Shown here: one piece after another, positions 2,279 to 7,300 of the stretch
Position numbering within the stretch: the first letter of the stretch is position 1
Layout: each line of letters begins with the position of its first letter
Assembly: GCA_025526935.1 (NCBI GenBank)
Contig: JAHLKD010000057.1
Coordinates: 124,001-188,000 of the forward strand
DNA: 64,000 nucleotides
Source of the DNA: Cladochytrium replicatum
Lineage: Eukaryota > Chytridiomycota > Chytridiomycetes > Cladochytriales > Cladochytriaceae
Reading direction: 5' to 3'
Position numbers and translations under genes: made by a program
Notes under the pieces: model-generated
Seen by the model: the letters and a program-made list of their open reading frames with translations, nothing else
Database searches by the model: none
Told to the model about the DNA's origin: nothing

Positions 2279-4248
2279 TTAATCAATGTTGACAGTGTTA
2301 GATAGAGCCTTCATTTTCTTTCCCTCGAATAGGAATTCTTTCACATTTTGCATGGTCACATCGGCGATTGCAGTTAAAGCTTCCTCAGTCAGGAAAGCCT
2401 GCCAGGATCGCAATGCGTTTCAAATAAGATTCATAAGACGCCAATTGCACTTACCTGATGACTGGTTACAACAACGTTTTGGAAACTGAGCAATCTCGCA
2501 AGGATGTCATCGCACAGTAGCTCTCCTGATTTATCCTCGAAGAAGTAGGCTGGGAACAGGTTATTGAATATTATTTCTCAAAATGTCTTTTTTTTCAATC
2601 TCACTTTGCTCGTCTTCGTAGACATCCAATCCGGCACCGCCGATATGACCAGTCTTCAGCGCATCAATAAGATCCACAGTCTTGATCAATCCACCTCGAC
2701 TTGTGTTGATGATAATCGCTCCTTTTGGCATCAAAGCAATTGAATCTTTGTTGATCATATGCTTGTTTGCCAAAAGTGGACAATGAATCGAAAGGATGTT
2801 GGAGGCGCGCAGAAGATCGTCCATGTTTTCAACGTAGCGGACGTTCGGGTTTGCAACCAACTCGGGATTGGGGTGCATATCGTAGCATACTATGTTGCAG
2901 CCGAATCCTAGCATAATTTGAATGAAGCAGCATCCGATCTACACACACGATCAGCATTGCAAAACCATTTGTGAACGGTAAACCTCACACCTTTCCTGTT
3001 CCAATTACGCCCACAGTTTTTCCGTGAATATCAAACCCAACTAGATGATTCAATGAGAAGTTTCCTGTCCGCACTCGGTTGTATGCCAAATGAATCTTTC
3101 TGTTGATGACCAAAAGTAATGCAGCACAATGTTCGGCGACCGCGTACGGAGAATACTTATTGCCCTTCGATTAGCATACCTCAAAAGAGAAATTTAAAGT
3201 ACAATTACCGCAGGAACTCTCGCAGTAGAAATCCCAAAGTCTTTGCACGCACTGAGATCACAGTTATTGAAGCCAGCACATCTCAAAGCAACCATCTCCA
3301 CATTTTTCACGCGGAGCTCCCTCAAAACTTCCGAGCCTGCGTTGTCGTTAACAAAAATACAAACAATCTGAAAGACTCGGGGTCAGTCAATGTTTCTCTT
3401 TAAAGGGTTCTATGTACTTTCGCTCCATTCGCATAGTGAACTGTGTCGAGACTCAGCTTTGCATCGATATACTTCACGCGCACTGGCTTTTTAGAGCCAG
3501 ACTCACGGTTCAGCGCTTGCAGAGCCGCTTCGAAGAAGTGTCGCTCATAGGGTTTGTGGTCATACAGAACCATAGTGGTGACCGATTCATCGGTAACATC
3601 ATTCCCACCTCCGGTGTCTTGCAATGCTGATAGTTTTGCAGAAAAATCGCGGAGCTCTTTGGTAAGGTATCTTGAGATAGACATGCCGATCGACGCATTC
3701 TCGCTGACGATTTTATCGAATGATTGTTGATCAATTCTGAAGCACGCTGCCTGGTTATCCGAAGTAACTGTGATCGTCACATCCAACACAGATCGATCGA
3801 GCTGATTAGGTCATTAGAAAGGCAGAAGAAAAGTCGACGACTTCCTCACCAGAGCGGCCACACCGATAATATCGCCCCTTCTCAACAACATCAACTGCTT
3901 TCCGTTTTTGGTGACTTCCGCGGTTCCCTCAGAAATAATGTAGCAGTACTTTGGGGGATCTCCCTCTTTGCCTAATAGTGAGCCTTTGACGTGGAGACTC
4001 TCCTCCATGGTGGCCGCGAAGAGCGAGGCTGCAGCATCGGGGAGGTCCTGAAACATTGACATAGATTTTAACAGCACGATTCGCTTGTCAGAGGGATCTA
4101 CACGCTTCCCTTGGACGGTATTCCCCCCAGCGGTCGTTGAAGCTTTTTCGAAGAGCTTTAGACATTTGCACCAAGAATTTTTACTACGTACCGCATGCAC
4201 CCATTCCTTTGATTCTACAGAGTTAATAAGTATTGTTTGCCTAGCCAT
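2279..4248 (-). CDS. cNMP-binding-like domain fused to D-lactate dehydrogenase
   Basis: The seven-exon model (4248-3850, 3801-3418, 3367-3209, 3155-2991, 2938-2605, 2549-2455, 2398-2279) gives 551 aa. An in-frame ATG at 4293 would add 15 residues. Residues about 55-190 resemble a cyclic-nucleotide-binding beta-roll, including [13 protein letters not shown] and a GDIIGVAAL segment. The phosphate-binding cassette lacks the usual Glu and Arg, so ligand binding is doubtful. Residues about 210-551 are a complete NAD-dependent D-lactate dehydrogenase. They show GTGKIG for NAD, Asp after the second beta-strand (CYDMHPN), Arg in NTSRGG, Glu in DVYEDE and the catalytic His in TSHQAF. Exon 2 crosses the domain junction without an intron, so the fusion is not an artefact of joining two genes. 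The enzyme would interconvert pyruvate and D-lactate. The gene is divergent from the SNX gene, with starts 69 bp (or 25 bp) apart. Confidence 0.88.
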
Positions 4249-4317
4249 GATTGGCTGCCTGTGCCCCGTTCCCACGCGCTGGCTTCCAGCCACACCTGGA
4301 CCTGAGGACCCTCAACT

Positions 4318-7300
4318 ATGTACATTCCGGCCGATCCTTCGCCAGCGTACAAGCCGTGGACATGGTTGGATGTAGCGAAACACTCGCTCAACTTTCTCGG
4401 GCTGTCGTGGCAGCTGTTTGTCCTTGTTTGGGTTACCATCTTTGAGCAGCAAAGGAGATTGTTCATCCCCTTTGTACTCCTTGTTGTCGGATATAACTCG
4501 TACTGGATCGTGCGGTTTCTCGTTCAATTAGTCTACGTTATTGTTGCGTGCGTTGTGGTCTATGCTTGGTATAATTGGTTTTTCCGTCTCGCCCCAAGAT
4601 CTTCTGGGCGATACCAAGCGTTAACAGCGCTTCGACGTCTCGTCGCTGCACAGCCGACCACTAATAATAGCCTCACGTTTGTTCACTCTCGAACGCCATC
4701 TCCAGAGAGATCAATTTCTCCTGACTCAAGGAGCTTTCGCGAACCGGAAGAGACGGTTTGGTGGGCATCGAATAATGTTCTCCGGCCACCGCCATTCTCT
4801 CAACCGCAAGCGTGGAAAGAATGGCAGAAGCGGAGGGAAAAGGAAGCGGTCATGACTGGGTACGGTGAACCTCCAGGATTGAGGATCGAGTCTGCAAAGC
4901 TGAACCAGTTGGTAGAAATGCTCATCAACTACGTCGTCAGAGACTTTGTCGATTCGTGGTATCGGAATTATGTTTCGCGAGAACTGGCTGTGTCTCTGCA
5001 GATTCACGCTCTGCTGCGACATATCACGAATCATCTTGTTGAGGATGTTACAAAGAAGGATTTCGTCTCGTTCATCGTCAATCGTGTTCTGCCTCTATTC
5101 AAACAGCACATCCATGAATGTCGGAAAGCTGAGCGCACACTCAAATCAATCAAAGCATATCGAGCAGTCTACCTTGACCCCAACATGCGTTTGGAGAAAG
5201 ATGATACCGTCGAATCGTATGTTGCGAGATGCTATCGTGATGGCTATGTACACGATGCCATTACTGAGAAACCAGTACCTACTCTTTCGTTTGAGCTTAA
5301 ATACCTGCGAAAATTGATCGGAGTTATGATGAAGCATTTTTGCCCTGAACGTGAAATGAATAGTTCTCTTGTTCGCATATTTGTTCGAGAGGTTTTGGTC
5401 AGTAGGATTGTTCAGCCTTCGCTGGATTATCTATCCGATCCCGACTATTGGAACCAGATGATTAACAGAATGGTAGTTGGGAAGAAGTCTCATCTCAAAA
5501 TCTTACTAATACCTCCATAGGCGGACTTTCTTTCTGCTGGTGAAAGGTAAGAACAATAACTTAGTTTTACGCTCTGAAACCCTGAATATCTTCGTCAGCA
5601 ATTTGGTAAACAAGATCCAACAAGCGCTGGAAGATCAACAATGGAATGGTGTTAGATATGACGATGGTGACCAAGGCGAAGCAGGTGGTGGTGACTGGAT
5701 CACTGCTGATTTGATGGAGTCCAAGAAGATTGCGGACCGATTTGTCCGTTATACGAGACAAGTTAACAACCTGGAAGAATCATACGCTCTCCATGCCAAA
5801 GTCACCGACGATATTCATGAGATCCGATCAATCATTGGTAAGGCATCCGCGTCCTCGTTTCTTAAAGACTCTAACGATATGCAATCAGGGGGCATGGCAG
5901 CGGACGAATACGTCCAAGGCAGGAAGGTTCAGGACTTTAAAGTTCACCTGAAACGACTTCATACTGCACGGAAGCGGTTAGATGCACGCATCATTGATCT
6001 AGGTGGTTACTTGGAGAAGGTTAGCTGAATTTGTATTTTTGGAATTACTGCTAATTTGTACGAAAGCCTACAAAAGATTCGCGTGCCATGGACGACTTAA
6101 ACGGGCCGCCCTTGCGCAATGTATTGGAATCCGAAGACGACAGTCTGTTTCACGTTTTTATGGCTTGGATCCGCAATCGCGACCGCGATCGTTTTCTCCT
6201 CTTTTGGATCCGTGTGAATCAAGTACTAATAACGGCAGCCCCGGTTATCGACGAGAAAATGCGAACGATTTCGCCTACCGGTCAAGACGGTGGTGACTCC
6301 AAGAGCCCCTCCCCAACAAAAACGTCATTTCAGCAGCGTGGCCCTCCAAGAACTATTCGAACAAATTCTCAACCTGGCATCTCCGAAATCACTTCACCAA
6401 TATCTGTTGTTGATGCAAAGACTGTTGAAAGAGAGCAAATTGAGAAATGGCGATCCCTTGCGGACCTTATCATTGATCTACACCGAACGTTCTTGGCCCG
6501 TGGTGCCATGTATCGAATCGACGTTGCTAGTCCCGCGATTGGTCGTGAAGTTGACAAACTCATCACATCAATCGATTCATATGTAACGGAGTCGAATCGG
6601 AACGTTGCACTCCTGGACTTAATGGGGAAGCCATTCGCACCAAACTCGAAAGATCAAGATTTCCAGTCCTTTCAGCAAGATGTTCAACTGGTTGTGCGTC
6701 ACTTGATGGATATTCAGGATCAGGTTTTCGCAGTACTGAAATCAGAGGACTACCCAATGTTTCTACAGAGTACAGATTATCTGAAATACACAGCTCAGGT
6801 TTCACCTGGTGCGCAGATGCTCTCACCAACGAAGATCAAAACAGGGGAACGGATTATGCGTGCTATCTCCCCTATACCGACGGACGGCACCGGCAGAGAC
6901 GAAAAAGGCACCCCTGCAGTACTGAAAGGAAAGCATTCTTGGAGTGGCAGCTCGCCTTCGCTTCTTCAAACGGCCACCCCAAACTTATCCCAACGGCCAC
7001 CGCTTCCAGGTGATGGTCGTCTCGTGGGGAACGAAATTGAAGAAGAAAACCAACCAGATTCTATCGCACGCAGTAAGAGCACCCCAGGAACCGCTTTATC
7101 AGCCGACGATTTGATAGCAATTAGCTCGAAAAAATCATCGAAGAAGGGTGAGCGAGGTACGCCAACAACTGCTGCTAAGACTGCGAATTTCTTGAAGCGC
7201 ACTTCGCGGAACGTCTTTTTCCCTATCTACAGAACACCATCTGCAGAAGGTGATAAGTCAGAGTTTTCAGGGGTTCCTGGAGAATTGAATCCGGATAAGG

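Follow-up and report, generated by a model that had tools for sequence, protein, structure and literature searches.

On the minus strand of the window (the whole 64,000-nucleotide stretch of DNA that was analysed), positions 4204-2279 encode a 520-residue protein made of a cyclic-nucleotide-binding (CNB) domain followed by a complete fermentative D-lactate dehydrogenase (D-LDH). Its stop codon, 2281-2279, coincides with the first coordinate of the feature that an earlier sequence-only reading had described. The features of the gene are as follows.

2279..4204, minus strand: CNB-D-LDH fusion gene, running from the ATG at 4204 to the stop codon 2281-2279 in 8 exons and encoding 520 residues
4192..4204, minus strand: exon 1, 13 nt, encoding MGAC plus one base; the identical 13 nt occur in the paralogous copy C12
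3850..4142, minus strand: exon 2, covering the N-terminal helices and the larger part of the putative CNB beta-roll, as far as the point where the phosphate-binding cassette begins
3418..3801, minus strand: exon 3, the fusion exon, in which the remainder of the CNB domain, the linker and the beginning of the D-LDH share a single frame
3697..3987, minus strand: Pfam cNMP_binding match, residues 57-137, broken by the intron 3849-3802
3769..3876, minus strand: phosphate-binding cassette region, residues 94-113, containing the intron 3849-3802
2321..3564, minus strand: D-LDH catalytic and NAD domains, residues 182-507, exons 3-8
2690..2707, minus strand: active-site Arg motif NTSRGG, residues 416-421
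2609..2626, minus strand: active-site Glu motif DVYEDE, residues 443-448
2393..2466, minus strand: active-site His motif TSHQAF, residues 478-483, split by the intron 2454-2399

The splice sites of the gene were deduced from the DNA sequence together with conservation. Every intron is of the GT-AG type, with lengths of 48-56 nt, and the spliced reading frame is open. Intron 1 (4191-4143, 49 nt) lies after MGAC in the start MGAC-ASTTAGG. An ATG at 4248, which gives seven exons and 551 residues, was considered as the start and rejected, given that it is absent from the C12 copy. That copy keeps the exon ATGGGTGCATGCG with the intron directly after it, and the equivalent of the 4248 ATG is missing. 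Since C12 has the ATG, the 13-nt exon and the same intron point, 4204 is the better choice of start codon.

A cytochrome P450 gene (PF00067, E 3.2e-31 for one exon) lies at window positions ~430-2040, downstream of the D-LDH gene; in the C12 duplicate, the flanks match but the stretch between them that would correspond to this gene is absent. On the other side, a divergent gene at 4318-6028 carries a PXA domain (E 1.9e-38), of a type found in sorting nexins, and starts ~110 bases from the D-LDH start.

In the 551-residue model, the D-LDH half is matched by the Pfam families 2-Hacid_dh (PF00389; 88.0 bits, cut-off 24.6, E 5.6e-25) and 2-Hacid_dh_C (PF02826; 160.4 bits, cut-off 25.1, E 3.9e-47). 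The three active-site motifs listed above, together with GVIGTGKIG (GxGxxG) at residues 332-340 of the window protein, are what we take to be the catalytic Arg, Glu and His and the NAD motif of the enzyme. All four are present in the 520-residue protein, as the sequence-only reading had claimed, and the corresponding columns do not vary across a five-row alignment (A1) of three fungal copies and two bacterial ones. The best PDB match of this half is 5z20, named fermentative D-lactate dehydrogenase (E 7.2e-97) and presumably from Pseudomonas. The D-LDH half aligns with this bacterial LdhA-type enzyme from residue 33 to residue 326 of its 345 submitted residues and keeps the active-site and NAD motifs, whereas the 5z20 chain has no N-terminal CNB domain. 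Among the NCBIfam matches listed, the D-LDH and CNB-type partial matches are all below their cut-offs, and no model of the fused build appears among them. The ldhD gene of the gut fungus Pecoramyces is 996 bp long according to the available portion of PMC5796279, which is too short for the fusion; hence, a fungal D-LDH does not need a CNB module.

The CNB half is recognised by Pfam in the 551-residue window model (cNMP_binding, PF00027; 43.3 bits, cut-off 27.5, E 3.6e-11), and the nearest solved structures, among 51 sequences at E 0.01 or better, are those of protein kinases G and A. Although CNB domains of these kinases are its best sequence matches in the structure database, the window domain differs from them in having both Glu and Arg replaced and in having a metabolic dehydrogenase as its partner. 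In the alignment with PKG, the canonical Glu corresponds to Val99 and the canonical Arg to Leu108 (520-residue numbering). The cassettes of the other fungal copies read GVAALLDRSALDVT (C12), GLGTLLERTAHSAT (C104) and GLGNMLEHNPHSAS (C13 and C15), so that the clamp Glu is lost in 5/5 and the clamp Arg in 5/5 fungal fused copies. The earlier statement that the sensor cassette lacks the canonical residues thus extends from the window to the whole set. In comparison, six cassettes read from further CNB genes of this fungus (L003, L005, L008) all have Glu and Arg, in a rough control whose search pattern favours canonical cassettes and which left L001, L002 and L006 aside. Two genes with multiple tandem CNB domains were also seen (G000:C27:215541-217422 and C55:160648-162506), and the cassettes of the C55 gene (L003) are canonical, with Glu and Arg. 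Nucleotide-cyclase domain matches number 14 in the genome, on 8 contigs.

The genome searched comprises 50.5 Mb in 198 contigs. With the D-LDH half as query, five close loci were found, namely C57 (the window gene), C12, C104, C13 and C15, all of which are fused; the remaining D-LDH matches in the genome are only 29-32% identical. The CNB half as query returned the identical five loci, and all of them, once spliced, are open to a stop. The Pfam scan covered the window protein (C57), C104, C15 and the two bacterial fusions described below (G319, G289), with both halves above cut-off in each; the cNMP_binding scores are 46.2 bits in C104, 39.1 in C15, 72.4 in G319 and 70.4 in G289 (cut-off 27.5). 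For C12 and C13, identity to C57 and C15, respectively, is 94-98% across the two domains. Introns at alignment columns 287, 340 and 507 are present in 5/5 copies, and one at column 148, just past the cassette start, in 4/5 (missing in C104). Given these common intron positions, the fused gene predates the duplications, and the CNB-D-LDH build is, to judge from the sequences, an old and retained architecture in this genome.

The pairs C57/C12 and C13/C15 are alike beyond the D-LDH gene, with 79% and 83% identity over ~2 kb plus flanks, and dS in these duplicate stretches is ~0.6-1.1. The chitin synthase matches likewise look paired, and an old hybridisation or whole-genome duplication may lie behind this genome. 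The chitin synthase profile gave 73 matches (best E 1.7e-226) and the dynein stalk profile 12 matches on 12 contigs, from which the host is probably a flagellated, chytrid-like fungus. A radial-spoke marker had no match in the genome, and neither did its control.

Selection was measured in the two close paralogue pairs. Between C57 and C12, the CNB domain is identical at 128/131 positions, with dN/dS of 0.009 (NG86) or 0.016 (YN00) at dS of 1.08 or 0.72, while the D-LDH is identical at 327/345 (dN/dS 0.030 and 0.047, respectively) and the linker at 15/21. Between C15 and C13, identity is 128/135 for the CNB domain (dN/dS 0.029 with NG86, 0.026 with YN00) and 325/344 for the D-LDH (0.044 and 0.035). 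The codon-bootstrap 95% ranges of dN/dS for the CNB domain are 0.000-0.027 (C57/C12) and 0.010-0.065 (C15/C13), and those for the D-LDH are 0.016-0.047 and 0.025-0.070. Purifying selection on the CNB domain is as strong as on the D-LDH, yet not clearly stronger, since the ranges overlap. A domain identical at 128/131 positions at dS of 0.7-1.1, with dN/dS of 0.009-0.016, is not a relic. Such selection points to a working CNB domain, whether as a sensor of another ligand or as a module for dimerisation, two options that the sequence-only reading had allowed; it also fits a purely structural role. Between C57 and the copies C104, C15 and C13, the CNB domain is only 33-36% identical, compared with 64-65% for the D-LDH; given this divergence between paralogue groups, the ligand may differ among them.

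The same build was found in bacteria. The fusion occurs in at least 2/392 genomes of the Blastopirellula phylum (Planctomycetota by NCBI), a lower bound because the best three candidates per genome were scored, and a profile search over the 392 genomes returned the same two, G319 and G289. Identity to the query is 43% for G319 (residues 54-547 of the query) and 40% for G289 (residues 62-536). Each is a single intronless frame, of 495 aa in G319 and 509 aa in G289 counted from the start codon, with all three Pfam domains present. The cassette of G319, GEMCLFGQDRRSAT, is canonical, with Glu and Arg, and that of G289, GLTSIFAERPRSAT, keeps the Arg and lacks the Glu. Their contigs are short (5,055 and 6,769 bases), and by eye the adjoining frames look bacterial. 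We propose that these two bacterial frames and the five fungal loci form a CNB-D-LDH fusion family, with an N-terminal CNB domain immediately followed by the D-LDH, whether as one frame or as one spliced gene.

No further fusion turned up in class-level searches of 29 and 23 genomes. The genome-contig scan gave one bacterial locus, from Blastopirellula, which matches residues 210-541 and lacks the fusion. Among plasmids, none of 2690 matching records had a single place that spans 80% of the fused query, and with a bacterial fusion as query 0/2709 records reached 80% coverage. Long open frames in the phylum search (766 and 627 aa) showed no CNB recognisable by eye. In the same phylum, L049:1450-2874 (G127:C96) encodes a D-LDH that bears a response-regulator receiver domain (PF00072, E 3.5e-18) at its N-terminus; as the receiver sits in the same place, the N-terminus of D-LDH accepts different sensor domains.

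In a D-LDH tree of 33 rows, the fungal copies form one clade (100/100), G319 is sister to that clade with an unstarred support of 90/68, and G289 clusters with D-LDHs of its class that lack the fusion. The best tree thus splits the two bacterial fusions, although a topology that unites all seven fusions in one clade is not rejected (AU p 0.119). The fused CNB domain of G319 is the best non-fungal match of the C57, C104 and C13 CNB domains. For these three, it also outscores five CNB comparators from their own genome (L003, L004, L005, L007 and L008, with L001, L002 and L006 dropped), with small margins over L005 of 48.9 vs 41.2 bits for C104 and 39.7 vs 36.2 bits for C13. Either a single ancient fusion that moved between bacteria and fungi or repeated fusions are possible from these comparisons.

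We regard it as moderately probable that the protein is a catalytically competent NAD-type D-LDH carrying an N-terminal regulatory module of CNB fold, which would gate the enzyme through a ligand or through oligomerisation. The C-terminal CNB helices are predicted to run straight into the first D-LDH strand, and their movement would alter D-LDH activity; alternatively, the module may control assembly of the D-LDH dimer. Given that the helices lead into this strand, binding or pairing at the roll could change the open-closed movement of the enzyme or its assembly. The fungal module would descend from a version that senses cyclic nucleotides (cNMP), like that of G319, whose intact clamp suggests that one of the states of the family is control by cNMP. 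It would since have been re-tuned to another small molecule, most likely of the nucleoside or nucleotide type, or to a ligand-free role in dimerisation; a clamp that is gone in a domain that is held fits either outcome. In one paralogue pair, the MGAC N-terminus may add membrane anchoring.

That the locus is an artefact, i.e., two adjacent genes or a mis-spliced model, is extremely improbable. Although the window gene model rests on DNA and conservation, the junction is spanned by one exon (3418-3801), in which a single frame runs from the end of the CNB domain through the linker into the D-LDH, confirming what had been said of this exon. Five loci carry the same fusion with common introns, and two bacterial genomes have it as one intronless frame; for this reason the fusion is more than chance, and the claim that it is real in the DNA is borne out beyond the window. 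Rather unlikely, though a stronger contender, is a CNB domain without any role in the control of catalysis, acting as a tether or scaffold that places the D-LDH, e.g., at a membrane or the flagellum. Both C57 (window 4192-4204) and C12 start with MGACASTTAGG, and MGAC, with its Cys at position 4, is what we take to be an N-myristoylation pattern. The loss of the clamp residues in 5/5 copies also suits a tether, as do the dynein stalk matches of a genome that looks flagellated. A precedent is the trypanosome protein PGKL, whose CNB domain has no ligand contacts and which sits in the flagellum, at the axoneme, according to the part of PMC4106842 available. However, the starts of C104 and C13, read by eye, lack MGAC, and a tether leaves unexplained why the CNB helices enter the D-LDH through a short linker in bacteria and fungus alike.

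The reading that links D-lactate metabolism to a second messenger stands only in part. It would have the fungal CNB domain bind cAMP or cGMP in a non-classical way, thereby coupling D-lactate formation to cyclic-nucleotide signalling, which we find doubtful. The genome has nucleotide-cyclase domain matches, and the bacterial homologue G319 has a canonical clamp. Losing only the Arg is, moreover, compatible with a cAMP response: a clamp-Arg mutant of mammalian RI-alpha is still activated by cAMP, with an EC50 ~5-fold weaker, in the accessible text of PMC6440977. In the fungal fusions, however, both Glu and Arg are gone in 5/5 copies, while the six cassettes read from other CNB genes keep both, in the control whose pattern favours canonical ones. 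A comparably doubtful idea is that the CNB domain could be an allosteric sensor of purine-nucleotide energy state, inherited from a bacterial cNMP-gated D-LDH, behind the GTP inhibition of the D-LDH of zoosporic fungi. The species used by LeJohn in 1971 reportedly included aquatic fungi, and we know of no assigned site for GTP inhibition of fungal D-LDH. The title of that work, as given in the reference list of PMC2768740, names allosteric GTP inhibition of fungal D(-)-lactate dehydrogenases. That these enzymes were of the kind seen in the window is a guess.

A regulatory CNB module on a competent D-LDH, the reading we favour, may be set beside known systems. CNB domains are known to switch kinases, channels, exchange factors and transcription factors, and also a few enzymes. 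The mycobacterial acetyltransferase Pat, which is under cAMP control, and Bd1971 likewise have a CNB domain fused to an enzyme. The Pat model is matched by G319 and G289 over the CNB part only and far below cut-off, and Bd1971 chains are matched by sequence. Here, in contrast, the enzyme is a D-LDH and the fungal clamp is degenerate. Trypanosome PGKL is also a glycolytic-type protein with a CNB domain, yet its catalytic residues are gone and it contains HTH and membrane parts (PMC4106842, in the portion available), whereas in the present protein the D-LDH motifs are intact and the CNB domain precedes the enzyme. The PKA-R of kinetoplastids resembles the fungal module in that its clamp Arg is replaced, and it binds nucleoside-type ligands, namely 7-deaza-nucleosides (PMC6440977, accessible text); it differs in having two CNB domains and in regulating a kinase.

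As of 2014, the Pfam architectures with cNMP-binding domains included no fusion to a glycolytic enzyme, according to the available part of PMC4106842. No D-LDH-CNB case was found in the literature searched, where the broader searches are weak evidence of absence, and the word "cyclic" does not occur in the portion of the main text of PMC6303947 that was accessible. The literature found, including that 2014 paper as far as available, agrees with the earlier remark that no fermentation enzyme of this build had been described. What appears to be new is a CNB-bearing enzyme with an intact fermentation partner and a pocket that is degenerate but conserved.

If the proposed function is true, control of the last step of lactate fermentation would be built into the enzyme itself. 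The fusion also makes the GTP inhibition of fungal D-LDH, as named in LeJohn's 1971 title, testable. Furthermore, a CNB domain without the contacts for cAMP that is nevertheless held at dN/dS of ~0.01 makes a promising starting point in the search for a new CNB ligand.
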